Assembly (NCBI GenBank): GCA_016200005.1
Contig: JACQFP010000048.1
Coordinates: 1 to 64,000 of the forward strand
Length of the DNA stretch: 64,000 nt
Origin: Verrucomicrobiota bacterium
GTDB taxonomy: Bacteria; Verrucomicrobiota; Verrucomicrobiia; Limisphaerales; PALSA-1396
Direction of reading: 5' to 3'
Position 1 is the stretch's first letter, and every line of letters begins with the position of its first letter. The notes under the pieces are model-generated. The model worked only from the letters and a program-made list of their open reading frames with translations, ran no database searches and was not told the origin of the DNA. Shown piece after piece: positions 5,546-62,523 of this stretch. The translations under genes were made by a program, and so were the position numbers.

Positions 5546-5592
5546 GAAAATCTGCACTACCTTTTTTCGGTGAAATTCATACGGTTTTTTGT
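5546..5592 (-). promoter_or_regulatory. Shared bipartite element, copy A
   Basis: On the minus strand the core GAAAAAAGGTAGT is preceded, exactly 21 bases upstream, by a second A-rich half-site (AAAAACCGT). The core lies about 96 bp before the SBBP gene start. The rest of the leader up to the DUF1080 gene end (5593-5869) shows no gene or other clear signal. Confidence 0.6.
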
Positions 5593-8741: not shown

Positions 8742-9539
8742 TCAATCTTCAAGATACCAAAACGAGTGCACGACGTTCCACGACTTATCAACCTGCCAAA
8801 GCTTCTTGAAGGGCACGCGCTCGACATGCCCATCCAGCAGCGTGACATTGGCGCCGTTGTTGTGGACCGTGGGCCGGGCGTTATTGAAAGCGATATTGTC
8901 TTCACCACCGCCACCGCTGTCCGGCACCTTGTCGTGATCGGCATCGCGCGTAAAATGAAAGCCGGGATCCACGGGATCGTAAATGTAATGATCGAAGGCA
9001 TCCATGAACATCATGGCATCGTCGGGTTTCTTGATGCGGGAAGCTTTCAGCGGCTGAATGTCCGCGCCGCCGTAGTAGAAGGGCCCACTCAGCGGATTTC
9101 CAGGATTGCCCATGTTGGCGCCGATCCAACTATTCCAATTTCCCCACGCTGTGGAGAACGGCGGCGTTCCCCTGCTGCCACCGGGGCACTTGCGTAGTTC
9201 GTTGGTGTAGGCATCGGTCGTGTTGAACAGTTGTCCCGCCTGCACCTGTTTGGCCACGTAAGGCGCAAGTTTCTGAAACCAAAACGGCGTCTTAAAATCG
9301 TAAACGTCAGCCATGAACGGAATGTTGTCGTCGTAGTCGCCCAGATACATGACCGTCGCGACGCCCCATTGTTTCATGTTGGAAGCGCACTTGATCGCCT
9401 GGGCCTTGGCCTTGGCTTTCGCCAAGGCGGGCAACAATAATCCCGCCAGGATCGCGATGATCGCGATGACCACCAACAGCTCGATCAAGGTGAAGCCACT
9501 CGTTTTCGCGTAGGATGTTGACGCCGCAAGTTTGCTCAT
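8742..9539 (-). CDS. Pseudopilin-like H-X9-DG protein
   Basis: This 265-residue protein starts at [15 protein letters not shown] and has the type IV pilin/type II pseudopilin N-terminus [25 protein letters not shown]. It is processed at G|F by prepilin peptidase, with E5 of the mature chain present. The C-terminus carries the prepilin-associated H-X9-DG signature ([12 protein letters not shown]) and ends SFWYLED. These proteins form the soluble or tip part of a pseudopilus-like assembly in PVC bacteria, and individual roles are unknown. It is closely related to the pseudopilins at 12815, 51426 and 52344. It heads the cassette with the TIM-barrel gene downstream. Confidence 0.9.
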
Positions 9540-9592
9540 AAGAAGACCGGGTTTGTAACAATTCAAACGTACCAACTGCTTCCCGGATCCGT

Positions 9593-9650
9593 CTTGCTAA
9601 AAACGCCACAAAGCTGCCGTTTTTTCGCAAGCCTCACAGCATTGACGTTA
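9593..9650 (-). promoter_or_regulatory. Duplicated leader motif, copy I
   Basis: The sequence is nearly identical to 13689-13740, upstream of the other pseudopilin of this pair. On the minus strand it reads GCTGTGAGGC, then a core GAAAAAACGGCAG, then GGCGTTTTTAGCAAGACG. The core resembles GAAAAATGGTAGT of the nine shared elements, but the 21-bp upstream half-site is not recognisable. It may be a diverged version of the shared element. It lies about 75 bp before the start codon. Confidence 0.45.
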
Positions 9651-9745
9651 AACTGATAGTCGAAACGCGGAGTGTATTTGTTCATAGCTTCTCTGCCTTG
9701 CTTCACCAGCGCCTTCGGGAAAAGAGTCAAACATTCAGTATGTTC

Positions 9746-9799
9746 TCAGACTGATTTTTTCTGGAAACGCCGTTTTCTGTACTCGCTGGGAGAAACACT
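9746..9799 (-). pseudogene. 3'-end remnant of an AraC-family gene
   Basis: On the minus strand this stretch encodes VSPSEYRKRRFQKKSV and a stop. That is almost the exact C-terminus of the intact AraC gene at 13842-14774 (VSPSEYRKERLQKKSV). The following non-coding DNA down to the pseudopilin start is also about 85% identical to that behind the intact gene. Upstream the similarity stops, next to the 3' end of the lyase gene at 9824. This is a breakpoint scar from duplication of an AraC-end/leader/pseudopilin segment. Confidence 0.85.
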
Positions 9800-9823
9800 T
9801 AAGTAGTTGAATGATCGTCACGA

Positions 9824-12814: not shown

Positions 12815-13630
<816 letters not shown>

Positions 13631-13688
13631 AAGGTGTGCCCGAGATTCAAATAAAAACTTTAATCTACCCACCTCTTCCAAGTTCCGT

Positions 13689-13740
13689 CTTGCTAAAAAC
13701 GCCGCAAACCTGCCGTTTTTTCACGAGCCTCACAGCATTG
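13689..13740 (-). promoter_or_regulatory. Duplicated leader motif, copy J
   Basis: This is the counterpart of 9593-9650, with the core GAAAAAACGGCAG on the minus strand about 79 bp before the pseudopilin start. The two leaders stay about 85% identical up to the AraC 3' end. Since it lies just behind the AraC gene, it is a candidate target for that regulator. This is inference. Confidence 0.45.
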
Positions 13741-13841
13741 ACTTTAAACTGACAGTTGAAACGTGGAGTGCATTTGCTCATAGCTTCTGTTCCTTGCCTC
13801 ACCAGTTCCTTCCGGAAAAGAGTCAAACCTTCGGCATGTTA

Positions 13842-14774
13842 TCAGACTGATTTTTTCTGGAGGCGCTCTTTTCTGTACTCGCTGGGAGAAACACCCATGA
13901 AAGAGCGAAAGATCGCGTTGAAGTGGCTGACGCTTTCGAAGCCCGTGGCAAAGGCCGCTTCGGTGATATTGGTGCGGGATTCGCTCAGTAGCGCGATGGC
14001 CCGGTGGATGCGATAGCCCTGCAAGTATTTCACCCAGGAAACACCCAGTGCGTTCTGGAACAAGATTTTCATCCGTGACTCACTCATTCCCGCCGCGCGC
14101 GCCATGTCTTGCGCATAGATCGGTTTAGTGTAGTTTTCGCCCACATACTGGAGGCTTTTACTGATGCGACGCCAGTCCACCTCCAATGACGCGTCGTTGA
14201 CCTTTCGTCCAATGCGCTCCTCCCAGCGCAACAATTCCACCAATTGTTCCACCAAGATGGTGCGCAATCTCATTTCCCGACCAAACCAATTGTTTTCAAA
14301 CTCCGCGACAGCTTCCTTGAAAAGCTGAGTCAGCTTGCGTCGAAGCACGGGCGGAGTCCGCACCAGGCGGTCTTTGAGGGATTGCTGCGCTGCAAATCGA
14401 TGAAGGATTGCCGGACCAGCGCTTTGTGGCCCCAAATCGATCATTACGCTCGGCAGGAAGTAAATCGCGACGAACGTGGCCGGATATTTTGTTATTCGGA
14501 CCCAGTGTGGAACGCCTGGTCCAACGATGAACAAGTCACCGGCGATGCGCTCCGTTTGTTCGCGTTCAACGAAGGCAATGGTTCTCCCTTCTAAAAGAAT
14601 GCTAAACTCAAAATAGGGATGCCACTCCGGATATGGTAAGGCCGGCCCTGAAAGATTCCTTCCGTGGCGCACCCAAACAGGAAACAACTCGCTCAATGGC
14701 TGGCGCGACTCTTTCACTTCGGACAACCAGGAAAGCTCAGGTAAATTGGTGGATTGGGATTTAACCTTCCTCAT
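13842..14774 (-). CDS. AraC-family transcriptional regulator with cupin domain
   Basis: This 310-residue protein has an N-terminal cupin-like sensor domain (about 40-130, with GRTIAFVEREQ and GDLFIVGPGVPHWV). The C-terminal AraC-type double helix-turn-helix lies at about 210-305 (YAQDMARAAGMSESRMKILF, then ITEAAFATGFESVSHFNAIF and the hallmark MGVSPSEYRKER). Such regulators usually sense a sugar and bind direct repeats near promoters. It lies immediately upstream of a pseudopilin/PL26 lyase unit on the same strand. It is a paralogue of the regulator at 50426-51358. Confidence 0.92.
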   Translation of the reverse strand: MRKVKSQSTNLPELSWLSEVKESRQPLSELFPVWVRHGRNLSGPALPYPEWHPYFEFSILLEGRTIAFVEREQTERIAGDLFIVGPGVPHWVRITKYPATFVAIYFLPSVMIDLGPQSAGPAILHRFAAQQSLKDRLVRTPPVLRRKLTQLFKEAVAEFENNWFGREMRLRTILVEQLVELLRWEERIGRKVNDASLEVDWRRISKSLQYVGENYTKPIYAQDMARAAGMSESRMKILFQNALGVSWVKYLQGYRIHRAIALLSESRTNITEAAFATGFESVSHFNAIFRSFMGVSPSEYRKERLQKKSV

Positions 14775-15266: not shown

Positions 15267-16394
15267 TCACGGCAGCGTCGCCTCGAACAGCTTGTACGCG
15301 GCTTGTCGCATCTCCAACGGGAAGTCATGAGTGCAATCCGGGTGTTCCACGCGCAGCCGTTCGGGATGACCGTATAGTTTATAGATCTGGCTGGCGGCGG
15401 CGGCGATACGGTCAACACTGGCCGCTTGAAAATTGTGGTCCTTCAGCGGAGCGATGATCAGCACATGCCGCGGAGCCAAAGCGCCGATCAGTTCGTAAAA
15501 ATCGTACGGAATTGTTTCCAGTTTGCCGCGATAGCCGGCCAAGCGGGGCATGTACAATGTCTGCGTCCAGCCTTTGCCTGGCATCCACACCTTCTCGTCG
15601 CCGCTCATGTAATCGAGGTACGAATCGAGACCGCAACTGGAGACCACTGCCTGAATCCGATCATCGAACACGCTGGTATAGACCGCGTTGTGTCCCCCCA
15701 GCGAATGGCCGATGGCTCCGAAGCTTCCTTTCTTGACGTACGGCAGCGATTCCAACAGGTCGAGACCGCGGATGTTGTCCCAGACCGCCTTCAACGTGCC
15801 GCTCTCCCAGCCCAAGGCTTTGAGGTCCGGCTGATATTTCGCCAAAAGCGGATAGCTGGGTGCGAGCGTGACAAATCCCCGCTCGGCCAGTTCGGCGGCG
15901 TACGGTCGGTGCGGAGGATTTCCCAGCCCGACGACTCTGCCGTTACCGACGATGTTGTCTGATCCCTGCAGGCAGACGATGGCAGCGACTGGCTTGGCGT
16001 CCGCCTTGAGCAATGGTTTGGGAACCAACAGGTACGCCGGCACACGGGAACCGGGTTCCGAGGCGTAAGTGATCAGGCGACGCACGTACGTTCCGCAATC
16101 GACATCTTCCTGCACCTTCATCTCGATCGAACAGCGCTTTTCTGGGCCTGGCAGCTGACCCATGACTGTCTGCATCCCGGCCTTGATCTCGGCCCGGCGC
16201 TTCTGCCAATCGGCTGAAGTCCTCACCGGGAGCGACTCGTTCTTGTCACCGCGATAGACCAGGAGATCGTCCCGCGGCAACCGCGGCGTCGGTATCTTGT
16301 TGCCCGTGATCGAGGGCTCGCCGGCGAACAGCGGCACCCACATTGCGCCGCTCGGAATTGCCAGAGTGCCGAGCGTCAGAAGAAATCGAAGCAT
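15267..16394 (-). CDS. Secreted alpha/beta hydrolase (acetyl-esterase/DLH type)
   Basis: This 375-residue protein starts at MLRFLLTLGTLAIPSG, a signal peptide. The frame stays open upstream to 16559, but that part is poor in domain features. The alpha/beta-hydrolase core shows the nucleophile elbow GHSLGG with S231, the acid in APLKDHNF and the histidine in DCTHDFP. The closest types are the plant-cell-wall esterase and dienelactone hydrolase groups that remove acyl groups from polysaccharides. It stands alone on the minus strand and diverges from the gene at 16798. Confidence 0.82.
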   Translation of the reverse strand: MLRFLLTLGTLAIPSGAMWVPLFAGEPSITGNKIPTPRLPRDDLLVYRGDKNESLPVRTSADWQKRRAEIKAGMQTVMGQLPGPEKRCSIEMKVQEDVDCGTYVRRLITYASEPGSRVPAYLLVPKPLLKADAKPVAAIVCLQGSDNIVGNGRVVGLGNPPHRPYAAELAERGFVTLAPSYPLLAKYQPDLKALGWESGTLKAVWDNIRGLDLLESLPYVKKGSFGAIGHSLGGHNAVYTSVFDDRIQAVVSSCGLDSYLDYMSGDEKVWMPGKGWTQTLYMPRLAGYRGKLETIPYDFYELIGALAPRHVLIIAPLKDHNFQAASVDRIAAAASQIYKLYGHPERLRVEHPDCTHDFPLEMRQAAYKLFEATLP

Positions 16395-16797
16395 GGAAAA
16401 TCCGCAATTGGAGAGTGATTGAAAGGAATTTGTTTTTTTAACGCTGAGCGGTTTCGCGAAGAATTGCTTTTCGTCCGCGGGCATGCGATCAGCCTTAACC
16501 TGGCCTTTTCCGATGTCAATCGTCAACTCCTGGCAGGGATTTGTTTTTTGGTCCGACATTTTGTCCGCTGCGCAGGAATAATTTCACAACTACTTAGAAA
16601 ACCGCAAGGGTTTGGTCGGAAAAAGGTAGTCGCGATTACGCCCGGGATTACCCTCTGTACCACACGTGCAAGATCCGGTTGCCGGCTTTATGCTTTTGCG
16701 AGGTGCTTGTGCCATCAATACGCGGGCTTGACTCTCGCTTGGTTCGCCGGCAGACATCCGCTTTCTGTGATGTGATCGAGCAACGCTAAGCAGTATC
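16395..16797. other. Divergent intergenic region with repeated short motif
   Basis: This is the promoter region between the esterase (minus) and the transglutaminase-like gene (plus). It contains two copies of the six-fold motif, at 16425-16443 (GGAATTTGTTTTTTTAACG) and 16536-16553 (GGGATTTGTTTTTTGGTC), and a weaker one near 16457. The esterase frame stays open through it. A translated N-terminal extension cannot be excluded but looks unlikely because the signal peptide lies at 16394. Confidence 0.45.
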
Positions 16798-17991
16798 ATG
16801 CATTACAACCGACGTGAGTTCATCCAAACCGGCCTGCTCGCGGCCGCGGCCTCCTCGCTTCCCTCCCCGCCGCACAAGGAAAAGCCCATGCCCCGCTACA
16901 ACTTCTCCTGGGACCGGCGTGCCCATGTCCGGCTGTCGAGCCGCCAACTGCCGCGCGCGCAGTCCTGCTTCTTTGACATGCCCCCATGGACGCCGCCCAG
17001 CTCCAACCACGAGGGGCCGGTCTCGTACTACGATCCGGAGCGTTTACGCCGTGCACGAATACGCCTCGCTGGGCTGGATCGGAAAGCTTACTTTCGCAAC
17101 CTCCTCGACCATGTCCTGAAGGACACGCGCACTGACAAGGAGCGCGTCATGGCAATTTGCAGATTTGTGGGCAGCGCGATCTACTTCAACCCCGTCCAGC
17201 AGCCGGTCGAGCCGCCATCAAACAACGGCGGTCCTGGCGGGGATCACGCGGTCAACGGCTGCATGGATCCGGTTGAATTGCTGGAACTGCACGACGGGCG
17301 TTGCGGTCAGCTCGTTGCCGTGACACTGGCGCTTTTTGGAGCGGCCGGAATTGAGGGACGCAATGTCCAACTCGACCACCATGTTTCGTGCGAGGCGAAG
17401 TACGACGGCGGTTGGCATTTGGCCGACGCACTGATGTTCGGCGCGAACCAACCGCACCGCAACGGGGTCGTCCTCTCCGGGAAAGAGATTCGCGCCGAAC
17501 CTTACTTCCTCGACTCCTTTCCTGTTTCTAATCTCGTCGGCACATTGGAGGAGTACTTCACCGCCGACGGGTTCCGTTGCCTGGGCTACGCCGTGGGCGA
17601 GTGGGGTTCAAGCCTCATGCCCTACAGCTCCTGGTATTGGGGCGCGCCGCTAGATAACCCGCCGACCCTGCCCTACCCGCTCGTGACGCAGCGAATGGGC
17701 GGTCAGCGCGTGCGTTTGAACTGGGCGCCTTCCTTCAAGGCCGGATCAGGGGAGATCGATTATCGTATCACTATTTTTGCCGACCGTGACTGCAAGCGGA
17801 TGCTTCACCAAGCCGTCACGAAGATCAACCATCTCGAATGGGAGGTCCCGCAGCAGAACACGATGTACTACTTCGAGGCTCAAGCGATGGATGACCACCG
17901 CCGATTCAATCCAGATACATGGTATCCGGCCGTACGCAACAATTTCCTGCTCGTGCCTCGGGAGCAGTACGGCTGGTACGGAGTGGTTTAG
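16798..17991 (+). CDS. Tat-exported transglutaminase-like protein
   Basis: This 397-residue protein begins with a twin-arginine type signal (NRREFIQTGLLAAAASSLP). The core has the transglutaminase/papain-like triad: C169 in DGRCGQ, H194 or H195 in DHHVSC, and D210 in WHLADALMF. A C-terminal fibronectin-like beta domain follows at about 300-390. Bacterial members may cleave or cross-link peptides, and some act on glycans. The next gene starts 29 bp downstream and shares the IQTGLLAA-type leader, so the two form an operon. Confidence 0.75.
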   Translation: MHYNRREFIQTGLLAAAASSLPSPPHKEKPMPRYNFSWDRRAHVRLSSRQLPRAQSCFFDMPPWTPPSSNHEGPVSYYDPERLRRARIRLAGLDRKAYFRNLLDHVLKDTRTDKERVMAICRFVGSAIYFNPVQQPVEPPSNNGGPGGDHAVNGCMDPVELLELHDGRCGQLVAVTLALFGAAGIEGRNVQLDHHVSCEAKYDGGWHLADALMFGANQPHRNGVVLSGKEIRAEPYFLDSFPVSNLVGTLEEYFTADGFRCLGYAVGEWGSSLMPYSSWYWGAPLDNPPTLPYPLVTQRMGGQRVRLNWAPSFKAGSGEIDYRITIFADRDCKRMLHQAVTKINHLEWEVPQQNTMYYFEAQAMDDHRRFNPDTWYPAVRNNFLLVPREQYGWYGVV

Positions 17992-18020: not shown

Positions 18021-20048
18021 ATGTCTTGCACCATGCGTCAGATCATCCAAACGGGCGTGCTCGCCGCGACATTGCCTTTCCTTCCCGGCGCCTTTGCCGA
18101 GCCTCGCGAGCAATGGATGCGTGAAGGCATCGTGACGGCGTCCGACATGCGAGGCCTGACCTTCATTCTGCGACGCGGCGGCGACTTCGCGGATATTCCT
18201 GACAAATGGCATGCTCAGCGCAACGAAGAAACTGTGCGGAGGCTCAAGGAACTGGGTGTCAACCTGATCATCGTCAACCTTCAAAATGGTTTCGGCCTCA
18301 AAGCCGAGGGGAAAGATATCGAAGCTACGCGGGCCTTTACCGTGCTAGCTCACCGCCACGGTCTAAAGGTGGCCGGTTATGTCGGTGCCAGCCTGATGTA
18401 CGAGACGTTCTTCAAGGAGGAGCCCGCGGCCCGTGAGTGGCGGCAAGTGGACGAGTTTGGGCGGCCTATCTACTACACTGCCGAGCAGACCTATCGCTAC
18501 ATGGCCTGCCGCAACAATCCCAGCTATATGGCTTTCGTCAAGAAAGTGATCCGTCTGGGTATCAAGGAACTGGGCATGGATGTGCTGCATTTCGATCAGG
18601 TAATGTGGTGGCCCGAGCCTCAGTCGTGCCGCTGCTCCCATTGCCGGCAACAGTTCCGCGAATTCCTTGCCCGACGTTATAGTGACCCGGCTCGCGCGCG
18701 GCTGCGGTTCGGCTTCGCGGGGTTCGAAGAAGTGATCCCGCCGCCGTATAACCTGCCGGCGGGACCCCCGGTGATGATCGCCGAACTGAAAAATCCGCTG
18801 ATGCAGGAGTGGAGCCTGTTCCGCTCGGCCAGTCTGGCCCAGCGCTGGGGCGAGCTCGACCGCTATATCCACCAGCTCAATCCACACGCGGCGATAATCG
18901 GCAATCCCATGATGTATCAGGAAGGCAACGTCGGCTTTCTCTTTGGTGTGGATCTGGGGCAGTTGGCGGAACACGGTGATGGGTTGTGGACCGAAGAGCC
19001 GAACTTGCCCCAGTGGACGGCCGACAACCGTCTGATTTCACGGATTCGAAGCTATAAAGCCGCTCGCGCCATGGGCCAACCCTTGTTTGTATGGCAGAAC
19101 CTGACTGGCAACGAAGATTATCAAAAGTCGCCGCAGGTGCTCCGCCTGGCCGAGGCACTGGCTTTTAACGACGCCAACCTCGGCGTAGTGGCTGGGGAGG
19201 ACGCGGGCGGCAACGAGCCATCCGAGGAACTGCGGCGATATATCCACTTTTTCTGGTCGCACCTCGCCGATCTGCGCCACACCACCCCCGTGACCGACGT
19301 CGGTGTGCTTCGCACCTTCGCGTCAACTCAATTCAATCCTTCGCACAGCCTCTTCAGTACCGTGCTGTTTGAGCAAACCCTGATTCAGTCCCGGGTTCCT
19401 TTCGGCCTCGTCTTCGAGCAGCGACTGCGCGACGTGAGCCATTACAAGGCGCTGGTGTTGGCCGATCAGGACGCGCTGAGTGACGAGCAAGTTGCGCAAA
19501 TTCGCCGGTTCGTCGCCCAGGGCGGTGGGCTGGTGGCGACCGAAGACACCTCGCGGTTGACGGACTGGCGGACCCGCCGTAACGGTTCAGCCCTCGCGGA
19601 CCTCTACGGCAGCAATCGGGTGGTTTATCTGCCACGCATTGAGGCGGCCGCGCCTGCGCCTGCCGCGCAAATGAGCTATTACATTCCCAATGCGCTCTGG
19701 AAACTGCCGCACAATGCCGATGCACTGCTGGCCGCGGTGAAGCAGGCGGCGGGGGGGAAACTTTCCGTAGAGATGGAGGCGCCAGCTTGGGTAGTCGCGG
19801 AATTGGCCGACCAGCCAGCCACCGGCACGAGGCTGCTGCACCTCATTAATTTCAAGTACCAGGAGCCCCTGCGGGATCTCCCTGTCAAGGTGCGCCTGCC
19901 GCAGGGGGCGCGCTTTCGAGAAGCCGTGGTGGAGACACCCGATGGCCCAACTCAAAAACTGCGCGTTTCCGTCGAGGGAGACACGGTGTCGTTTCGGGTG
20001 CCGGAGCTCAAGGTTTACGACCTCGTATTGCTGAGAACGGAGCGATAA
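18021..20048 (+). CDS. Secreted TIM-barrel glycoside hydrolase-like protein
   Basis: This 675-residue protein has a leader (MRQIIQTGVLAATLPFLPG) similar to the Tat leader of the preceding gene but without the arginine pair. The N-terminal TIM barrel contains GMDVLHFDQ followed by CRCSHC, the same arrangement as in the gene at 6695-8563. An amidotransferase-like domain (about 440-540: HYKALVLADQDALSDEQV, FVAQGGGLVATED) and a C-terminal beta domain follow. This order fits the beta-galactosidase trimerisation superfamily. Substrate unknown. The start could also be 18033. Confidence 0.72.
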   Translation: MSCTMRQIIQTGVLAATLPFLPGAFAEPREQWMREGIVTASDMRGLTFILRRGGDFADIPDKWHAQRNEETVRRLKELGVNLIIVNLQNGFGLKAEGKDIEATRAFTVLAHRHGLKVAGYVGASLMYETFFKEEPAAREWRQVDEFGRPIYYTAEQTYRYMACRNNPSYMAFVKKVIRLGIKELGMDVLHFDQVMWWPEPQSCRCSHCRQQFREFLARRYSDPARARLRFGFAGFEEVIPPPYNLPAGPPVMIAELKNPLMQEWSLFRSASLAQRWGELDRYIHQLNPHAAIIGNPMMYQEGNVGFLFGVDLGQLAEHGDGLWTEEPNLPQWTADNRLISRIRSYKAARAMGQPLFVWQNLTGNEDYQKSPQVLRLAEALAFNDANLGVVAGEDAGGNEPSEELRRYIHFFWSHLADLRHTTPVTDVGVLRTFASTQFNPSHSLFSTVLFEQTLIQSRVPFGLVFEQRLRDVSHYKALVLADQDALSDEQVAQIRRFVAQGGGLVATEDTSRLTDWRTRRNGSALADLYGSNRVVYLPRIEAAAPAPAAQMSYYIPNALWKLPHNADALLAAVKQAAGGKLSVEMEAPAWVVAELADQPATGTRLLHLINFKYQEPLRDLPVKVRLPQGARFREAVVETPDGPTQKLRVSVEGDTVSFRVPELKVYDLVLLRTER

Positions 20049-20080
20049 AAGGGGAAGCCATTTGGGAACGAGCGGAAAAG

Positions 20081-20120
20081 AAGCACAATCCCACCGAAAA
20101 ATGGTAGTCAGCATTTTCAT
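20081..20120 (+). promoter_or_regulatory. Shared bipartite element, copy N
   Basis: The half-site GAAAAGAAGC lies exactly 21 bases before GAAAAATGGTAGT, here on the plus strand and about 140 bp upstream of the plus-strand gene at 20248. This is the only copy on the plus strand, and it precedes a plus-strand gene, so orientation follows gene direction. Confidence 0.65.
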
Positions 20121-20247
20121 ACTCGCTAAGCTATCGACTTTCGATGCTTATGAAGCACTTAGTGAGTGCACTTCGATCACGCAGTGCGAGTTGAATCGTT
20201 GCTCAGCCTCAACTAAAACTTTCCGTTTCCCGGTCTTTTAATGAAGA

Positions 20248-23200
20248 ATGCAAAATCACCAGCCAAATTTTTTTAAGAGACCCCCCCAAGATATACTCCG
20301 CGAATTTTGTCGTGCGTACGGGAACGCATGGCTTTGGGTGTGGCTCGTTGTCCTCAACCAAACGGCGGGAGTATCCGGGGCAGAGGGCAGACCCAGCATC
20401 CGGGACAAGGTGTTGAGCCAGCTTGAAAAATCCCCCGTCCAATACTCGACCCTCAACACTTGGTCTGCGCGCCGGAAGGAATTGCGCGAAGAATTTCTAA
20501 GAGGCGCCGGCCTGTGGCCGTTGCCGGAGAAAAAAACCCTGCACGTCGTCGTCCACAGCCGGCGTCAATACGACGGCTATTCGGTCGAGAACGTGGCGCT
20601 GGAAACGATGCCGGGATTTTTCTGCACCGGAAATCTTTATCGCCCACTCAAGCAAGACAGGCCGAGGCCGGGAATACTTTGTCCGCACGGACATTTCCAG
20701 CCGCTAGGCCGGATGCGGCCCGAACAGCAGATTCGCTGCGCCCAATTTGCCCGCATGGGCGCCACCGTCTTCTCCTACAGCATGGTCGGATGGCAAGACT
20801 CTAGGCAGACCACGCACGACGATCCGCTCGTGCTCGCCTTGCAAACGTGGAACAGCATCCGCGCGCTGGACTACCTGTGCAGCCTGTCGGAGGTGGATAC
20901 GAATCGACTAGGCATCACGGGGGCGTCGGGAGGCGGCACGCAGACTTTTTTTCTGGCAGCGCTCGATGACCGGGTGCGGGTTTCAGCGCCGGTCGTGATC
21001 GTTTATCCATGGACCGAACCTGATGGTTGCAGATGTGAAGGCGGCATGCCGGTGATGCAGACGGCCCAGACCGACGCGATTGAACTGGCCGCGTCGGTCG
21101 CGCCGCGACCGCAGTTGCTCATCTCGTGCGGTAATGATCCGACCAGCGACTTTCCGCAGGTTGGTTTCCCATTCATCCAGCGCGTTTATGCTCTGCACGG
21201 AAAGAGCAATTTGGTCGAGAACGTGCACCTCGCCGATGAAGGGCATGACTATGGGCCATCGAAACGCAGAGCGGTGTATGCCTTCTTCGCGAAACATCTC
21301 GGCCTTCCTTCCATCGAGGAGGAGCTGTCAAAGATCACAATTGAGCAGCCGGAACAAATGGCGGTCTTTGACGATCAGCATCCGCTCCCAGCCCACGCGA
21401 TCAAAGGCAGCGAGCAAGTGGCGAAGGTCTTCCACGCCCTGGCCCGTGCGCCGGGGACACTGGAGGGCGAATCATTCTTCTTCACGCCGCCGGGCTTCGC
21501 CCACGAAGGACAGGTTGCCCGCGCGGAGGGGAAGTGGAGCGGCTTGGTGAAAATCGTTACTCGCGACGCGGCCACTGGCCGGCCCACGCCCAGTCGCATC
21601 AGCGTCGTCGGCCCGGATGGAAATTATTATCAGCCTTCGACCAATCACCTCACGCCCTATGCACTCACGAGCCAATGGCCGAAACGAGGGACTTGGGGCA
21701 ATCGCCGCGACACGTCTCCTTATCGCTATCTCGGCCGGTTCTTTTACACGACGGGCGAAGTCGAGGTGGCCTTACCAGCGGGCAAGTCACGAATCGAAGT
21801 GTGGAAGGGATTTGAGTTCACGCCGCAAACACAGACGGTCGAAGTCTCTGCTGGCGGAACGAACAACGTTGAACTGGCGATCTCCAAAGCCGCTGACGTC
21901 TCGCACCTCGGTTACTTCGGCGGCGATTTGCATCTGCACATTCCCCGCAGAAATCCACAAGACGAAAATACGATCTTCGACCTGATGTCAGCCGAGGACA
22001 TCCAGTTCGGCGCGCTGCTGGCCTACAATGAACCGGCGGGACCTTACGCGGGGTTCATGGACAAGATGGACTCGCCGCAATCGGCCGGCCTGGGCGTCAA
22101 ATCGGTGCGCGAACGCGATGGCTATTCGATCATCGCTGGCCAGGAATATCGCAGCTCGACTTACGGCCATCTACTTCTCTACCTGCGCGACGGATTGGTT
22201 TTCCCGGGCAAAAGTTTCAACGCCGACAACTGGCCGGTCTATGGCGAAGTGGAGCGAGAGACGCGCGAACTGGGCGGCCTGGCGATCATGGCGCACGGCG
22301 GCTACGCGCAAGAGATCTACGCGGACGTCGCGCTTGGCAACCTGCACGCCGTTGAGCTACTCCAGTTCGACCTCTATCGCGGCATCGGCCTCACCAACTG
22401 GTATGATATCCTCAACACCGGTTATCGTTTTCCAATCACCGGCGCGAGTGATTGGCCGGCGTGTCGGTTTCTCGGCGACTCGCGCACGTTCGTCCACGTA
22501 GAGGGTAAGCCATCGCATGAAAACTGGCTCCGACGCGCGGCGGAGGGACGCAGCTTCGTGACCAGCGGTCCGATGCTGCTTCTGGAGATTGAAGGTCAAC
22601 GGCCCGGCACCCAGTTGAAGAAATCAGGTTCTGGTCCGCAGACCATAAGCGTCCGTGTGCGGACGCGATCCGAAGTAACACCGGTCCAGTACGTCGAACT
22701 CATCGTCAACGGTGAAGTCGTGTATAGGCAAACCATCCCCGCTGATAAGCAGCGAGGTGCATGGTGGGAACTCGAGCACAAAGTAGAGCTTCGCGAGTCA
22801 TCATGGATTGCCGCGCGGGCGTATTCAACAACACCGGGTGGCCGGCCCGATGCCGAGGCGCACACCAATCCGGTTTATGTCTATCTCGATGGCCACGCAC
22901 CGTATCGCCAGGCCTCACTGGATGCGTGGCTCGCCAAGATCGACGGGCAAATCGCCGCGCATGCCAAACGTAACTTCGCCGAGAAAGCCCGCGTGCTCGA
23001 TTATTTCCAACAAGCCCGCGACACACTTTTGCGGATTCGCGAGCGGGGAGGGCTGCGCGCCGATGAGAACCCAGCGCAGTGGCTCCAAAAAGCGGATGCG
23101 CTCAAGATTCCCCTCGCCGCCGCCGCCAGTTTTCGCGCGCCAACCGATGAAGAGTTGGAGGCGTTTCTCCAGCCGGTCCCGCCGAAGACGCCGCAAGCGG

Positions 23201-26127
23201 CGTTGAAGACCTTCGAGACCACAGGCGGTTTTCACATGGAACTGGTGGCCGCCGAGCCGATGGTCTATGATCCGGTGGCGGCGGCCTTTGACGCGGACGG
23301 CAATCTCTACGTCTGCGAAATGCGCGACTATCCCTTCAAGCCGGTGGCGGGTCGTGAGCCGATCGGTTCCGTCCGGCTGCTGCGTGACACGAATGGGGAC
23401 GGCGTGTTCGACCAGAGTACGGTATTCGCCGACAAGCTGCTGTGGGCGGCGGGCGTGGCGCCGTGGAAAGGCGGCGTGTTCGTCGCCGCGCCGCCCGACA
23501 TCTGGTACTTCAAGGACACGAATGGCGACGACGTGGCCGACATTCGTCTCAAGGTTTTCACCGGGTTCGGCATGGAGAATCAACAGGCCATGCTCAACAA
23601 TCTCGTGTGGTGGCTCGACCACAAAATCTACGGTTCCACTGCGGGAAATGGCGGAACGGTGCGACCGGCAAACAATCCCCAAGAGAAAACGATCGACGTC
23701 AATGGCAACGATTTTCGATTCGATCCCGTAGGCGGCGAGTTTGAAGCGATCACCGGCACCGTCCAATTCGGCAACACATTCGACGATTGGGGCAACCGGT
23801 TTCTGTGCAGCCAATCACAACCGCTCGTGCACGTCGTGCTGCCGAGGCACTACCTGGCTCGCAATCCCTACCTGCCCGTGCCGTCGGGGATCAAGGATCT
23901 GGCCGCCAACCCGGTGCCCATCTTCCGCATCAGCCCGGTCGAGCACTGGCGCCAAATTCGCAGCCACCGCCGAGTCGAGAAGAATGAACTCTCCGCCGCG
24001 GGGGCTGGCGTGAGTCATCACGTCGTGGACGCGGCGGCCGGTGTCACGATTTATCGCGGCGGCGCGTATCCACCGCAGTACTACGGCACGGTGTTCACCC
24101 CGGATCCGCAGAACAACCTGATCCACCACCGCCGGCTGATACCCGACGGCGTGTCGTTCAAGTCGCAGCGCGTCGAGGAACAGGCCGAGTTCGTGCGCTC
24201 GTCCGACATTTGGTTCCGACCCGTGAACCTGATCAATGCCCCCGATGGAACGCTGTACTGTCTGGACATGAGCCGCGAGGTATTGGAGTCCATTCACATT
24301 CCGCTGGACGTGGCGAAGCACCTGGATCTGACCAGCGGTCGCAATTACGGGCGCATCTATCGGATTGCGCCGAATGGTTTTCATTCACCGGCTCCGCCGC
24401 GACTGAGCCAGGCGAAGGGTGAGCAGTTGGTGGTGGCCCTCGAAAGTCCGCATGGCTGGTGGCGGGATACCGCGCATCGGCTGATCTACGAGCGGCAAGA
24501 CAAATCAATCGTGCCGGCACTCAAACGCATGGCCGCAAAAAGCCAGCGCCCCGAATCCCGACTTGCGGCCCTCTGGTCCCTGGAGGGATTGAACTCGCTT
24601 CAAGGCACGGTCGTGTTGGACGCGTTGAACGACCGGCATCCCGGCGTGCGCGAGAACGCGGTGCGCTTGGCTGAGCCGCGCTTGAACTCGTCTCCACAAA
24701 TGCTGGCTAAAGTGCTCGACCTCGCCAGCGACACGAATGCCCGGGTGCGTTTTCAAGTTGCTTTCACGCTCGGAGAGGTGCGTGACCGGCGTGCAGTCAA
24801 GACGCTGGTGGAACTCGCTGGCCTTTCTCCGGATGACCCTTGGATGCGTGCCGCCGTGCTCAGTTCCATGTCCACCGCACCTGCCGAAACCCTCTCTCTG
24901 CTCCTGTCCGACGCGGCGCCGACAAACAACGCTGCCCGCGCTGTTCTCTGCGATCCGCTTGCGGAGATGGTCGGCCAGCGAAACCGCCTCGACGAACTCA
25001 GGATCGCCCTGCAAACAATTACCACAGCAGACAAGCTCAACGATGGGGCAGGGTGGGGCGAGCGCCTGTTGCCGGCCATTGGACGCGGATTGAAACGCGC
25101 CGGAGCGCGGCTCACCGCCAACAACGGGTACGGTCCTGAGGTCACGCAACTTCTCGAAAAATCCAGGCTATCGTCCCGTCAAGCCGCACTTGATGGTCAC
25201 TTGGCTGAGGCCTGCCGATTGATTGCGATTCAACTGCTCGGTTGCTTTCCGTTGGATAAAGTCCGCGACGCGTTGGTACCGTTGTTGGACGCCAGCCAAC
25301 CGACGCCGGTGCAGATCGCCGCCGTGAAGGCGTTGGCTGATTACTCCGATTCCGGAGTCGCGGATTTGTTGTTGCAGCACTGGCGACAGTTCACGCCCGA
25401 CGTGCGCGCCGAAGCGCTTCAAGCGTTGCTCAGCCGCGAAGGTCGCACGCTGGCCTTGTTGCACGCGGCCGAGCAAGGTCAAGTGTCGCTGGCGGAGACG
25501 GACGCCGCCCGGCGCGAACCGCTGTTGCGTCATCGTAACGAAGAAGTGCGCAGGCTGGCCCGGAAGGTGTTCGGCGATGCGACGCGTAGTGACCGCGTCG
25601 CAGTGGTGGCGGAGTATCGCGCAGCCTTGCAGTTGGACGCAGATCCAAAACGCGGCGGTCTGGTGTTCGAGAAAAACTGTTCCGTATGCCACGCGTTGAA
25701 CGGCAAAGGAAATGCCGTTGGGCCAGATCTTGCCTCAGCCTCTTCGCAGGGCCCTGAAGCGCTGCTTGTGAACATCCTTGACCCCAGCCGGTACGTCCTG
25801 CCGAACTTTGTTCAATACACGGTGGAGGACAAGCAAGGACGTGTCTTCAGCGGTTTGATCGCATCGCAAACGGCAACGAGCATCACGCTCAAGGGAGCCA
25901 AGGGCGCGACGGACACGATCCTGCGAACGGACATCAAAGAACTGTTGGGCAGCGGTTTGTCTCTCATGCCGGACGGTCTGGAAGCCGCCATCAACCATCA
26001 GGAGATGGCCGACCTGATCGCGTTTCTTCAAGCGGCCCTTCCAACCACAGGTACTGCGGCAGTCGCCGATCGCGAACGCGATTTCGGCACGCTTCCCGGC
26101 CTGATCGAACCGACGGACAAGCAGTAA
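20248..26127 (+). CDS. Esterase/PHP/PVC dehydrogenase/HEAT/cytochrome c fusion
   Basis: This is one open frame of 1959 residues. Residues 1-45 are a signal region (WLWVWLVVLNQTAGVSGA). About 50-390 is an alpha/beta-hydrolase with S227 in GASGGGT and H333 in DEGHDYG. About 430-930 is a CehA/McbA-type PHP metallohydrolase with the metal motif DLHLH at 560-564. From about 985 a PVC-type membrane-bound dehydrogenase-like beta-propeller starts (ETTGGFHMELVAAEP, ADGNLYVCEMRDYP). HEAT repeats follow at about 1430-1790. The C-terminus is cytochrome c with CSVCH at 1811-1815 and a likely methionine ligand in SLMPDG. The last three parts normally form a separate PVC protein. The fusion suggests deacylation coupled to periplasmic oxidation of a sugar. 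No stop or frameshift was seen at the joints. Confidence 0.85.
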   Translation: MQNHQPNFFKRPPQDILREFCRAYGNAWLWVWLVVLNQTAGVSGAEGRPSIRDKVLSQLEKSPVQYSTLNTWSARRKELREEFLRGAGLWPLPEKKTLHVVVHSRRQYDGYSVENVALETMPGFFCTGNLYRPLKQDRPRPGILCPHGHFQPLGRMRPEQQIRCAQFARMGATVFSYSMVGWQDSRQTTHDDPLVLALQTWNSIRALDYLCSLSEVDTNRLGITGASGGGTQTFFLAALDDRVRVSAPVVIVYPWTEPDGCRCEGGMPVMQTAQTDAIELAASVAPRPQLLISCGNDPTSDFPQVGFPFIQRVYALHGKSNLVENVHLADEGHDYGPSKRRAVYAFFAKHLGLPSIEEELSKITIEQPEQMAVFDDQHPLPAHAIKGSEQVAKVFHALARAPGTLEGESFFFTPPGFAHEGQVARAEGKWSGLVKIVTRDAATGRPTPSRISVVGPDGNYYQPSTNHLTPYALTSQWPKRGTWGNRRDTSPYRYLGRFFYTTGEVEVALPAGKSRIEVWKGFEFTPQTQTVEVSAGGTNNVELAISKAADVSHLGYFGGDLHLHIPRRNPQDENTIFDLMSAEDIQFGALLAYNEPAGPYAGFMDKMDSPQSAGLGVKSVRERDGYSIIAGQEYRSSTYGHLLLYLRDGLVFPGKSFNADNWPVYGEVERETRELGGLAIMAHGGYAQEIYADVALGNLHAVELLQFDLYRGIGLTNWYDILNTGYRFPITGASDWPACRFLGDSRTFVHVEGKPSHENWLRRAAEGRSFVTSGPMLLLEIEGQRPGTQLKKSGSGPQTISVRVRTRSEVTPVQYVELIVNGEVVYRQTIPADKQRGAWWELEHKVELRESSWIAARAYSTTPGGRPDAEAHTNPVYVYLDGHAPYRQASLDAWLAKIDGQIAAHAKRNFAEKARVLDYFQQARDTLLRIRERGGLRADENPAQWLQKADALKIPLAAAASFRAPTDEELEAFLQPVPPKTPQAALKTFETTGGFHMELVAAEPMVYDPVAAAFDADGNLYVCEMRDYPFKPVAGREPIGSVRLLRDTNGDGVFDQSTVFADKLLWAAGVAPWKGGVFVAAPPDIWYFKDTNGDDVADIRLKVFTGFGMENQQAMLNNLVWWLDHKIYGSTAGNGGTVRPANNPQEKTIDVNGNDFRFDPVGGEFEAITGTVQFGNTFDDWGNRFLCSQSQPLVHVVLPRHYLARNPYLPVPSGIKDLAANPVPIFRISPVEHWRQIRSHRRVEKNELSAAGAGVSHHVVDAAAGVTIYRGGAYPPQYYGTVFTPDPQNNLIHHRRLIPDGVSFKSQRVEEQAEFVRSSDIWFRPVNLINAPDGTLYCLDMSREVLESIHIPLDVAKHLDLTSGRNYGRIYRIAPNGFHSPAPPRLSQAKGEQLVVALESPHGWWRDTAHRLIYERQDKSIVPALKRMAAKSQRPESRLAALWSLEGLNSLQGTVVLDALNDRHPGVRENAVRLAEPRLNSSPQMLAKVLDLASDTNARVRFQVAFTLGEVRDRRAVKTLVELAGLSPDDPWMRAAVLSSMSTAPAETLSLLLSDAAPTNNAARAVLCDPLAEMVGQRNRLDELRIALQTITTADKLNDGAGWGERLLPAIGRGLKRAGARLTANNGYGPEVTQLLEKSRLSSRQAALDGHLAEACRLIAIQLLGCFPLDKVRDALVPLLDASQPTPVQIAAVKALADYSDSGVADLLLQHWRQFTPDVRAEALQALLSREGRTLALLHAAEQGQVSLAETDAARREPLLRHRNEEVRRLARKVFGDATRSDRVAVVAEYRAALQLDADPKRGGLVFEKNCSVCHALNGKGNAVGPDLASASSQGPEALLVNILDPSRYVLPNFVQYTVEDKQGRVFSGLIASQTATSITLKGAKGATDTILRTDIKELLGSGLSLMPDGLEAAINHQEMADLIAFLQAALPTTGTAAVADRERDFGTLPGLIEPTDKQ

Positions 26128-26173
26128 GCTGAGGTTCGCTCATCATCCCGAACAGCGCGGTGCCAATCTGATT

Positions 26174-28087
26174 TCAGTTGGCGAAGTCCCTTTCGTGCAG
26201 CATCGCGCGCAAATTGCCCTGCATGGTCGTTACCCACAGTTCGCCCGGCGACGCTTCAAACAAATAGGGGTATGAAACCAACCACGTGCCTGGGCGACGG
26301 GCAATGACGACTGGTTTGCTCCACGTTCGACATTCGTCATCGGAGAAGGCCATCGACAATTCACCACGATGGTTGCTTACCGGCGTCTCGGACCAGATGC
26401 GGTCGCCGCCGCTCAAAGGGAAAGTATCCTTGCCCTCGGGAAAGAGGCGATTCCATACCAACACGATGCGGCCACTTTGCAGGCGCCGGAGCATCCCCGG
26501 TGCACTGCTCGCGGGAATGTCGCTTGGTCCCAACGGATGCCACGTCAGCCCGCCGTCCGTCGATTCGGCGCGCCAGAAGCGCATCCAATTCGTGCGCAGC
26601 AGCATCAAAAGCCGCCCATCCTTCAACTCGATGATCGTCGCCTCGCACACGCCGCCATGATGGCCGACGCCGCCCAAATCGATGATGTTGCTGGGCTTCC
26701 AGGTTTGTCCCTGATCATCGGAGGAATAGGTGAGCACGGTGTGCCGGCCGGGGTTGTGCCGCATCTTCATCGACGTAAAGACAACCCGGCCATGCTTGGT
26801 TTCCAGGATGTCGCGGATGGCGCCGGTCCAGTCGTCGTGCAATTTTTGCGGCGCTTCCCACGTTGCCCCGTCGTCCGTGCTGCGCATGACGCAGGTGGGC
26901 AGCACGGCTCCCGGCGCGTCGTGGAGTTTGTTGTCCCATGTCCAGTGCTCCTCCGCGTTGTTCATGAACGCGGCAATCACCACGCCCTTGCTCGTCCGGA
27001 TGATCGCTCGTTCATCGCTGATCTTGAATTTCAACGGGTCCTCGAACATGCGATGAGTCTGCCAGGTCTTGGCGCCGTCGGCGCTAGTCAGGCAGTTTGT
27101 ATCCTCGATGGTAAGCAATCGGCCGTCACCCAACCGCACAAACGGGCCCATCTTCAAGGCCGGCATGTCGGTCAGCCGAACGTCGAGTTCCATCCCGGAA
27201 GAGGCGGGTTTGAGTCGGATTGCGGGAATTGACGATGGCGTGTCCAGTTGCATCGATCCGAGTTGCTGAAGCAACATGTCGGCGATGAGGCGATGGCCGT
27301 TCTCGTTGGGATGCATGCCGTCCAGTAGCAGGTCGTCGATCGAATGGTCCTTTTCGGCCCCATACGACTGGAACAGGGCGTACACGTCCATCAGTGGGAT
27401 TTCAGTTTGCTTCGCCACCTCACGCACCGCCTGGGCGTACGTCTTCAGCAGCACGTTGAACCCGTCTGGATCGTCTGGAGCGTAAGGCGGCTTGCCGTAC
27501 AGCGATCGCAATTCTTTTGTCCAACGCATCAGATTGGGCGTCATGAGAATCACCCGCACGCCCCGGCTCCGTAGTTCGGCGACGAAATAGGACAGATTGG
27601 CAGCAAAGTCATCCCGTGACACGCTTGGCTTGGTCGCCGGCGGATTCTTCCAGACATTCACGGTCGAATCATTGATGCCGAACTGGATAATCACGATGTC
27701 GGGCTGCCGACCGAGAACGTCCTGCTCGAATCGTGCCCGCGCATCGCGTGTGGTGTTTCCCGGAATCCCGGCGTTGATGACCTCCACGTCGCGCTCGGTC
27801 AGCTTGTCATTCTTGGCCGGCTTATCCGCGTAAGCCGCGTGAGCCAACCGATCCGCGTAAACCGTGAGCGCCTTGCCATCGACTACTCGCGGTGCCGTGG
27901 TCGAGTCGCCAAATGCAACGATTCGTAGTGCGCGCGATTTCGTTTCGCCGATCGAACGATCTGGCATGGCACACGAAGCACAGACCACGAGCGCGATCAA
28001 ATTGCAGCCAGCCAAGGTGGTGAACATGGCGGAGCGACGTTTTCTAAAGCGAGGTTCGTTGCATGAGTTGGAATCTGGAGACTTCAT
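26174..28087 (-). CDS. SGNH hydrolase fused to exo-sialidase-like propeller
   Basis: This 637-residue protein has an N-terminal SGNH/GDSL esterase (GDST with S62, a GINDS block and the catalytic pair in DGMHPNENGH). It is followed from about 280 by a six-bladed BNR/sialidase domain with Asp boxes SADGAKTW, STDDGATW, SSDDQGQTW and STDGGLTW. The start at 28087 gives an N-region followed by the hydrophobic stretch LIALVVCASC, possibly a lipoprotein signal. The combination could deacetylate and then cleave a glycan. It is the second gene of a unit headed by the pseudopilin at 28161. Confidence 0.85.
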   Translation of the reverse strand: MKSPDSNSCNEPRFRKRRSAMFTTLAGCNLIALVVCASCAMPDRSIGETKSRALRIVAFGDSTTAPRVVDGKALTVYADRLAHAAYADKPAKNDKLTERDVEVINAGIPGNTTRDARARFEQDVLGRQPDIVIIQFGINDSTVNVWKNPPATKPSVSRDDFAANLSYFVAELRSRGVRVILMTPNLMRWTKELRSLYGKPPYAPDDPDGFNVLLKTYAQAVREVAKQTEIPLMDVYALFQSYGAEKDHSIDDLLLDGMHPNENGHRLIADMLLQQLGSMQLDTPSSIPAIRLKPASSGMELDVRLTDMPALKMGPFVRLGDGRLLTIEDTNCLTSADGAKTWQTHRMFEDPLKFKISDERAIIRTSKGVVIAAFMNNAEEHWTWDNKLHDAPGAVLPTCVMRSTDDGATWEAPQKLHDDWTGAIRDILETKHGRVVFTSMKMRHNPGRHTVLTYSSDDQGQTWKPSNIIDLGGVGHHGGVCEATIIELKDGRLLMLLRTNWMRFWRAESTDGGLTWHPLGPSDIPASSAPGMLRRLQSGRIVLVWNRLFPEGKDTFPLSGGDRIWSETPVSNHRGELSMAFSDDECRTWSKPVVIARRPGTWLVSYPYLFEASPGELWVTTMQGNLRAMLHERDFAN

Positions 28088-28997: not shown

Positions 28998-29043
28998 TCA
29001 GGATCCGAACTACCTTTTTTCTGTGATACTCATGCTGTTTTTG
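28998..29043 (-). promoter_or_regulatory. Shared bipartite element, copy B
   Basis: On the minus strand AAAAACAGC and GAAAAAAGGTAGT are 21 bases apart. The core ends 42 bp before the pseudopilin start. A further GGTAGT lies between element and gene, near 28987. Confidence 0.65.
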
Positions 29044-30625: not shown

Positions 30626-31015
30626 GGTGCTAGCGGCGCTCCGTTCCACTATTTGAAGAGTTCATGCCGCCATGATTTCATAATCACAGTGCCGAAAATC
30701 AGACGTCGACCGGCAGCCGTATGCGAGGATGCTGGCTTTGCACTAAATTGGTGAACAGGGACGGTCAAGCATGGAGCATAGGGATTGACGATTATCTTGT
30801 TGAGGTTGTTTTCGAAGTCCGCAGAGGGTTGCTCCTCAAGCTTTGAGCGCAGGATGATCCTGTCATGGCAATGTTGCCACGTGGTCGATCTAGGTGCATT
30901 GCGCATGTGATATCCAATATGACAGTGGATGAAAACTCAGACTACCATTTTTCTGTGCAGCTTGCGCTGTTTTCCACCTGCTCCAAGACGGCTGCGCCCG
31001 TACGGCCATTAGAGT
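30626..31015. other. Intergenic region before the symporter
   Basis: About 390 bp lie between the sialidase end and the symporter start. Apart from the shared element at 30931-30974 no gene or RNA was recognised. Because the element sits about 316 bp before the start codon, the symporter may have a long leader or the promoter may lie further in. Confidence 0.45.
30931..30974 (-). promoter_or_regulatory. Shared bipartite element, copy C
   Basis: On the minus strand GAAAACAGCG is followed after 21 bases by GAAAAATGGTAGT, one of the best matches to the consensus. It lies between the sialidase and the symporter and points toward the symporter. Confidence 0.65.
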
Positions 31016-49991: not shown

Positions 49992-50425
49992 ACAAATCAC
50001 GGATACCAAACGGTACTAAGAATGAGAATTGCGACTACCAATTTTTGTGAAAATTGCGCTGTTTTCGGTTCCTTTCAGGACACCTTACTTCCATCCACCA
50101 AACCAGCATTCGTCAGGATGAAGATTGGAAATGCCGAGTGGCTTGATGAATTGAAACATTGTCGAGTCTGACGACCGATACGTGTTTGCCTGTTTGTGAA
50201 CGGCAACCTGAGCGAGATTGACACAAGCATAAAACCATTCAGAATCATCCAATGCAGTTCGCCAGCATCAATATGATGGGCATTCACCTTCGCACCCGGC
50301 GTGTTATTGGAAGAGAGCGGTTCTTAACGCCCGGATCAGGATTGGGTTCGACGGGCACATTGAGCAATCTCCAAGCTCGAAATCGACCATCGTGAGTTTC
50401 ATCCGGCACTGCACAGAAAGCGCGT
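49992..50425. other. Divergent intergenic region before the AraC gene
   Basis: The region contains shared element F close to the truncated pseudopilin. The remaining 350 bp up to the AraC start show no gene or RNA. Confidence 0.4.
50023..50068 (-). promoter_or_regulatory. Shared bipartite element, copy F
   Basis: On the minus strand GAAAACAGCG is followed after 21 bases by AAAAATTGGTAGT, 43 bp before the truncated pseudopilin. It is retained although the gene is broken, so it may now serve the oxidoreductase. Confidence 0.65.
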
Positions 50426-51358
50426 ATGTCTGAAGTTGTTGTGCGACCGACCAAGTTGAGTGATCTCTCCTGGTTGCTGGACGTAAAGGAAACTGGGCAG
50501 CCTTTGACCGAACTCTCCCCCATCCGGGTCCAGAAAAATACCGTCCATTCCGGCCAACACTACGCCACGCCGACGTGTCACATGTACTGTGAATTCGGGT
50601 TCATTCTGAAAGGCGCGGGATTGTTCTTCGTGGAGCGAGAAGAGGCGGAAACCCAGCCGGGTGATGTTTTCCTCGGAGAACCCGGGGTGCCGCATTGCGG
50701 AAAGACCTTGAAATATCCCTCCGCGCATATCGTCATTTATTTCCTGCCCAGTGTTTTGATCGAAATGGGGCCGGAAAGCGAAGGTTCAAGGGTGCTCCAT
50801 CGATTTACCGGGAGCCATTCTCTGAAGGAACGCCTGGTCCGGCCTCCTCCTGGGCTGCGCCGGCGTTTGAAATCGGGTTTTGAAGAGATTTTAAACGAGT
50901 TTGAAAAGAAGGATTTTGGCCGGGAGATCCGATTGCGGAATTTGTTGACCGAGCTACTTGTTGAATTGATGCGCTGGGAACAGCGCGAAGGTCGCCGGAC
51001 GGGAACCATCGAAACGGAGGCGGACTGGAAGCATATCAACAAAATTTTACATTATCTCCGGGAACACTCCACCGAGCCGATTTATTCGCAGGCGCTGGCG
51101 CAGGCGGTCGGTTTGGGCGAGTGGCGCGTGAACGCATTGTTCCAAGGTGCGCTGGGGATGTCCTGGGTAAAATATCTGCAAAGCTACCGTATTCATCGGG
51201 CGGCCGCCTTGTTGAGTGAGCCCGGCAGCAACGTCACCGAGACAGCATTTGCGGTCGGTTTTGAAAGTCTGAGCCACTTCAATGCGATCTTTCGCTCCCT
51301 CATGGGTGTTTCCCCGAGCGAGTATGCGAACATCTCGGTGCAGAAGAAAGCCGATTGA
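50426..51358 (+). CDS. AraC-family transcriptional regulator with cupin domain
   Basis: This 310-residue paralogue of the regulator at 13842 has an N-terminal cupin sensor (GAGLFFVEREEAETQPGDVF, PGVPHCG). The C-terminal AraC double helix-turn-helix (YSQALAQAVGLGEWRVNALF, TETAFAVGFESLSHFNAIF) ends in the LMGVSPSEYAN motif. It lies between a unit on its left and a tandem pseudopilin pair on its right. It is a candidate for binding the shared 21-bp-spaced element, one copy of which lies in its own upstream region. Confidence 0.92.
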   Translation: MSEVVVRPTKLSDLSWLLDVKETGQPLTELSPIRVQKNTVHSGQHYATPTCHMYCEFGFILKGAGLFFVEREEAETQPGDVFLGEPGVPHCGKTLKYPSAHIVIYFLPSVLIEMGPESEGSRVLHRFTGSHSLKERLVRPPPGLRRRLKSGFEEILNEFEKKDFGREIRLRNLLTELLVELMRWEQREGRRTGTIETEADWKHINKILHYLREHSTEPIYSQALAQAVGLGEWRVNALFQGALGMSWVKYLQSYRIHRAAALLSEPGSNVTETAFAVGFESLSHFNAIFRSLMGVSPSEYANISVQKKAD

Positions 51359-53213: not shown

Positions 53214-53274
53214 TGAGAATTAACTTTCAAACTACCATTTTTCGCTCAAACATACGCTGTTTTCTGAGCCTTCG
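53214..53274 (-). promoter_or_regulatory. Shared bipartite element, copy G
   Basis: On the minus strand GAAAACAGCG and GAAAAATGGTAGT are 21 bases apart, and the core ends 45 bp before the pseudopilin start. Together with copy C it fits the consensus best. Confidence 0.65.
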
Positions 53275-62478: not shown

Positions 62479-62523
62479 GAAAACCGCGACTACCGTTTTT
62501 CGCTGAAAATCAAGTTGTTTTCG
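62479..62523 (-). promoter_or_regulatory. Shared bipartite element, copy H
   Basis: On the minus strand GAAAACAACT and GAAAAACGGTAGT are 21 bases apart, and the core ends 43 bp before the pseudopilin start. The rest of the region to 62730 shows only one copy of the six-fold GAATTTGCTTTTTGAC motif at 62539-62556. Confidence 0.65.

Follow-up and report, generated by a model that had tools for sequence, protein, structure and literature searches.

BT1017 of Bacteroides thetaiotaomicron (PDB 6GOC), the founder of CAZy family CE19, is a pectin methylesterase with a C-terminal DUF3826. Mutation has demonstrated its catalytic triad, Ser282/Asp352/His388, and it binds Zn through Cys315, Cys317, His201, and His244 (PMC7939467). 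CcPDH is a fungal quinohaemoprotein pyranose dehydrogenase (AA8-AA12) that carries a propeller like that of soluble glucose dehydrogenase (sGDH) and a haem b domain in one secreted chain; the catalytic histidine is His144 in sGDH and His363 in CcPDH (PMC6881789). PVC-type heme-binding CxxCH proteins (TIGR02604 + HEAT + TIGR02603; DUF7133) are numerous in the genomes studied here, with several copies per genome, and our literature searches found no papers on the function of these DUF7133-HEAT-cytochrome proteins. Literature on Piru_Ver_Nterm, on CehA with a PHP domain, or on fusions of the present kind in Planctomycetes was not found either. The fusion described below joins this architecture to a metal hydrolase and to an esterase whose relative has been characterised, which makes it a Rosetta-stone clue to the substrate of the DUF7133-HEAT-cytochrome proteins.

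The window, the whole 64,000-nt stretch of verrucomicrobial DNA that was analysed, contains one frame of 1959 codons in its list of open reading frames, open throughout as the preliminary description had reported. Family scans found the five modules in the order given there, namely esterase (EST), PHP, dehydrogenase-type propeller (DH), HEAT, and cytochrome c (cyt c) (Table 1). The residues named there (S227, H333, DLHLH 560–564, and CxxCH 1811–1815) were all correctly placed in the translation. DUF7133 was matched at residues 982–1376 (E 1.5e-119), TIGR02604 with 278.5 bits against a cut-off of 122.2 (E 9.9e-83), HEAT_2 in two stretches (best 1456–1540, E 1e-19), and TIGR02603, with its CxxCH motif, with 118.7 bits against 68.15 (E 1.7e-34). 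The last 1000 residues thus share the architecture of the PVC-type proteins, which also occurs as stand-alone proteins elsewhere, as had been noted; the nearest stand-alone propellers are about 50% identical. The N-terminus reads as a signal peptide, with a hydrophobic stretch ending in VSGA; the protein is probably exported.

Table 1. Features of the fusion gene, its upstream element, and its complete homologues. Positions are those of the window.
Feature	Position	Strand	Details
EST-PHP-DH-HEAT-cyt c fusion gene	20248..26127	+	1959 aa; family scans; recurs in other genomes
N-terminal hydrophobic segment, probable signal peptide	20248..20385	+	~res. 1–46, ends ...WLWVWLVVLNQTAGVSGA; read from sequence
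BT1017-type serine esterase module	20443..21444	+	res. 66–399; S227, D297, H333 (counterparts of BT1017 triad); C261, C263, H190, H149 (counterparts of Zn ligands)
Beta-sandwich linker domain before PHP core	21469..21879	+	~res. 408–544; AlphaFold model; Ig-like matches
CehA/McbA-type PHP metallohydrolase	21910..22881	+	res. 555–878; H562, H564, E633, H641, H683, D735
DUF7133/TIGR02604 propeller "dehydrogenase"	23125..24447	+	res. 960–1400; family scan and structure model
HEAT repeats	24535..25587	+	res. ~1430–1780; family scan
TIGR02603 c-type haem domain	25639..26031	+	res. 1798–1928; CSVCH 1811–1815; family scan and residues
Regulatory element CGAAAAATGGTAGT	20095..20108	+	upstream of fusion gene, 140 nt before ATG
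CGAAAAAnGGTAGT element, other copies	5556–5569 -, 16617–16630 +, 29009–29022 -, 30941–30954 -, 50034–50047 -, 53231–53244 -, 62489–62502 -		
Other complete five-module genes			L072/G052, L090, L093/G143, L094, L100, L103, L108, L109, L111, L132, L135

The whole protein was compared with 320 genomes of the same order as the source. Three other genomes had a gene covering all or most of it: G052 (1960 aa), G143 (2009 aa), and G048 (1831 aa). The PHP module was then searched in 84,980 named species, and the modules were counted per frame at the resulting loci. There were 49 loci, nearly all from Planctomycetota and Verrucomicrobiota, with four from other or unnamed phyla. They included 11 complete five-module genes besides the window's, of about 1960–2035 aa and from both phyla, and two that were cut by contig ends (L102 and L107). 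At L105 (the same as G048:C7; 9080–14575), the esterase is decayed and the remainder is intact. At L114 (5075–10263, Fuerstiella), the fusion is broken into three frames by two breaks, which could reflect either a pseudogene or an assembly error. Single genes elsewhere therefore carry the full order, and split forms are common too. The PHP-DH junction, at about 23200 in the window, is read through without a frame change in about 30 other genes, some complete and some contig-cut, which supports the continuity of the frame there; this conserved junction speaks against the break near residues 930–990 that the preliminary description had considered. An assembly or frameshift artefact merging two or more adjacent genes might be suspected, as the source genome offers a single contig for the locus and the Fuerstiella copy is split over three frames, but the 11 complete in-frame copies in other genomes make it extremely improbable, and it was rejected. 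Because the same domain chain recurs in at least 11 other genomes of two phyla, the fusion is, judged by sequence comparison, genuine, kept by evolution, and a recurrent new combination of known families.

The esterase module matched PDB 6goc with an E-value of 3.9e-68, and 136 of 331 aligned residues (41%) were identical to BT1017. The Ser-Asp-His triad, the Zn Cys2His2 site, and the GHF oxyanion/pocket pair are common to both proteins, whereas BT1017 has no PHP, propeller, or haem. H149, in the single GHF motif, was taken as BT1017 His201, the published numbering at that point being off by one from the rest. The triad, C261, C263, and H149 are conserved in 14 fused copies, one of them the window's; H190 is present in the window and in its two closest fused relatives. 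The preliminary description had proposed that the fusion deacylates a sugar. As the nearest solved relative is a pectin methylesterase and its triad and Zn site are kept, deacylation is less likely than methyl-ester removal, and our best guess is that the module hydrolyses methyl esters. A second esterase in the window (15267–16559, minus strand) is glucuronyl-esterase-like (GCE_fung, E 7.6e-9) and 26% identical to the fusion's module.

The PHP module scored 167.4 bits (E 4.9e-49) against the CehA/McbA metallohydrolase family NF038032, well above the cut-off of 80. The module and its relatives keep HxH, E, H, H, and D, which are six putative metal ligands. An ordinary PHP protein has more: where it carries the third-metal ligands TDH and DxH, the aligned relatives have (Y/M/L)N and D-(Y/F/W)-P instead. 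TDH and DxH were also absent from the other NF038032 members inspected in the same genome, and their absence may be normal for this subfamily and no bar to membership. PDB profile searches with the PHP alignment and with the DH alignment gave no match, and Foldseek with the PHP-region model matched nothing but Ig-like and other unrelated domains.

The predicted propeller structure (pLDDT 92.9) was searched with Foldseek. It matched with E-values of about 1e-8, with TM scores of about 0.5 to 1cq1 (sGDH) and 0.42 to 6jt5 (AA12). It also resembled HHIP, a non-enzyme, and DFPase, a hydrolase, with TM scores of about 0.4–0.5, so that non-enzymes scored equally well. CcPDH provides a working analogy, in that a single secreted polypeptide combines a propeller with a haem domain, but the fusion has haem c rather than haem b and a different domain order, and CcPDH His363 has no invariant DUF7133 counterpart: no histidine was invariant in a sequence-level alignment of 45 DUF7133 sequences. 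In seven genomes, searched without a positive control, PqqE above cut-off and PqqC were not found. The preliminary description had the fusion oxidise a sugar; the fold class of sGDH and AA12 agrees with this, the histidine and PQQ-synthesis results lend it no support, and we infer a sugar-oxidising domain only from the modelled fold and the haem. These two results would also suit a propeller that is not a PQQ sugar dehydrogenase, but a binding or scaffold domain or one with another cofactor, with the haem used for electron transfer or sensing, and HHIP and DFPase are among its nearest fold matches. We consider this rather unlikely, given that the chain itself has a conserved haem c motif, that the fold class is shared with sGDH and AA12, and that PQQ can be imported from outside.

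The architectures at the PHP loci form a series: PHP alone (L098, L116, L119, L120, L123–L125, L127–L129, and L134), PHP-DH-HEAT-cyt without esterase (11 proteins: L091, L092, L095, L096, L101, L104, L106, L110, L117, L118, and L121), EST-PHP (one protein, L097), the full five, and the full five with a decayed esterase. Given how common esterase-less and split forms are, the esterase is optional; PHP-DH-HEAT-cyt c appears to be the fixed core and the esterase an accessory that can be lost. In L105/G048, the Zn ligands, the catalytic residues, and most of the esterase core are gone through an in-frame deletion, and the remainder is about 54% identical; it is a natural esterase-dead variant. Variants with a dead or missing esterase are ready controls, and the esterase-less form has a cultured host, Singulisphaera acidiphila DSM 18658 (L095; NC_019892, about 7.137 Mb). 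The extra 240-residue N-termini of L091 and L092 were considered as a domain and rejected as upstream read-through. A PHP gene beside a DUF7133 gene (G000:C49) resembled a split version and turned out to be a short PHP protein among housekeeping-type genes. At L117 (14561–16600) and L118 (14558–16636), the fusion stop and the start of a different alpha/beta-hydrolase, 26–27% identical to EST, are no more than 10 nt apart, and at L126 (1–3261) a different alpha/beta-hydrolase domain is fused behind PHP. By their sequences, these three are independent PHP-esterase pairings.

In the esterase tree, the fused esterases formed one clade against 27 stand-alone relatives (support 100/100), and the window's branched deepest among them. 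The PHP tree placed the window in a clade (98/99) together with five members that lack an esterase, of which three are complete proteins and two are truncated at the 3' end alone. Forcing the esterase-bearing cores into one clade was rejected (AU p 2e-6). The propeller tree agreed, again grouping the window with esterase-less forms, and placed all PHP-fused propellers in one clade against the four nearest stand-alones (100/100). The fused esterases thus have one origin and their carrier cores are not one clade, indicating that the esterase was repeatedly lost or exchanged. The simplest reading would be that PHP and DH were joined once and that the esterase was joined once, then lost several times or swapped by recombination; the trees fit loss and exchange equally. 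Verrucomicrobial and planctomycetal copies interleave in the trees, which suggests transfer between the two phyla.

The three catalytic units could also act on unrelated or loosely linked substrates, the fusion merely ensuring co-export and co-localisation within one degradation programme. Such an arrangement would account for modules that occur separately and in several partial combinations, for an esterase lost or decaying while the remainder is kept, and for the disagreement between the esterase tree and the core trees. It is possible but doubtful, as 12 complete genes share the full order and the PHP-DH fusions form a single clade against stand-alone propellers, which suggests functional dependence, at least of PHP with DH.

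The gene's upstream element had been said to tie it to a cassette regulon. This was strongly supported by a whole-genome search, in which the element was confined to the window. The 6,540,721-base genome has six copies of the exact core, GAAAAAnGGTAGT, all of them in the window and each upstream of a gene; its reversed control pattern had no occurrences. With mismatches allowed, there were eight intergenic sites in the window, each upstream of a gene and oriented in its reading direction. A ninth match at 17375, with two mismatches, is inside a gene and was set aside as probably due to chance. In most of the aligned copies, a second box resembling GAAAAC lies 21 nt upstream of the element, and this spacing is usual for AraC-type half-sites. 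Two AraC regulators are encoded in the window (13842–14774 and 50426–51358). The element and the box together suggest an AraC-type operator. The longer form, GAAAAANGGTAGTC, was absent from 57 relatives.

The fusion's neighbours in the window include a PcRGLX (rhamnogalacturonan exolyase)-like protein, the glucuronyl-esterase-like protein, SASA and GDSL esterases, BNR-type proteins, two SSF symporters, and an enolase-superfamily protein, whose best score was to L-talarate/galactarate dehydratase, below the cut-off. These neighbours are consistent with a locus for acid-sugar or pectic catabolism, without naming the substrate.

We tentatively propose, with a little less than even confidence, that the fusion is an exported multi-enzyme acting on a methyl-esterified, uronic-acid-rich plant polysaccharide or its fragments. 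Within the same confidence, the esterase would, like BT1017, take the methyl ester off a residue of galacturonate or glucuronate, a step that is well grounded by homology. The following steps are progressively less certain. The propeller would oxidise the sugar so released, with the anomeric carbon as the probable site, as in soluble aldose dehydrogenases, and electrons would plausibly pass to the C-terminal haem c and then to respiration. The PHP metal hydrolase would cleave a related ester, most plausibly the lactone from this oxidation; the lactonase role is a guess. The neighbouring SSF symporters would bring in the acid product, which the enolase-superfamily enzyme would dehydrate. Action on such a polysaccharide is supported by the pectin-methylesterase kinship with its kept active and Zn sites, the sGDH/AA12-like propeller model and haem domain, the sugar-acid neighbours and window-confined element, and the recurrence of PHP modules beside or fused to other alpha/beta-hydrolases. 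Against it are the histidine and Pqq results, the neighbouring genes, which a joint comparison showed not to be conserved among fusion-bearing genomes, and BT1017 Arg245, which is not conserved in the fused esterases. The steps are separable, because 11 otherwise complete homologues lack the esterase and L105 has a decayed one. A complete three-step conversion of methyl-esterified uronates by one exported polypeptide (de-methylesterification, haem-coupled oxidation to a lactone, and metal-dependent opening), spread across Verrucomicrobiota and Planctomycetota, seems improbable at present; we know of no description of an extracellular oxidative route of that kind for pectin-type sugars.

Two repeat features were also observed. 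Between the element and the fusion start lies a strong inverted repeat (20121–20167; single-strand fold z -3.4), which may serve to terminate the upstream gene or as a leader structure; an Rfam search of 19900–26300 returned no match. Two long direct repeats (9301–9798 and 13392–13894), about 79% and 85% identical and about 4.09 kb apart, involve the start of an N-methyl/DUF1559 pseudopilin gene (12815–13681) and a second copy near 9300–9800.
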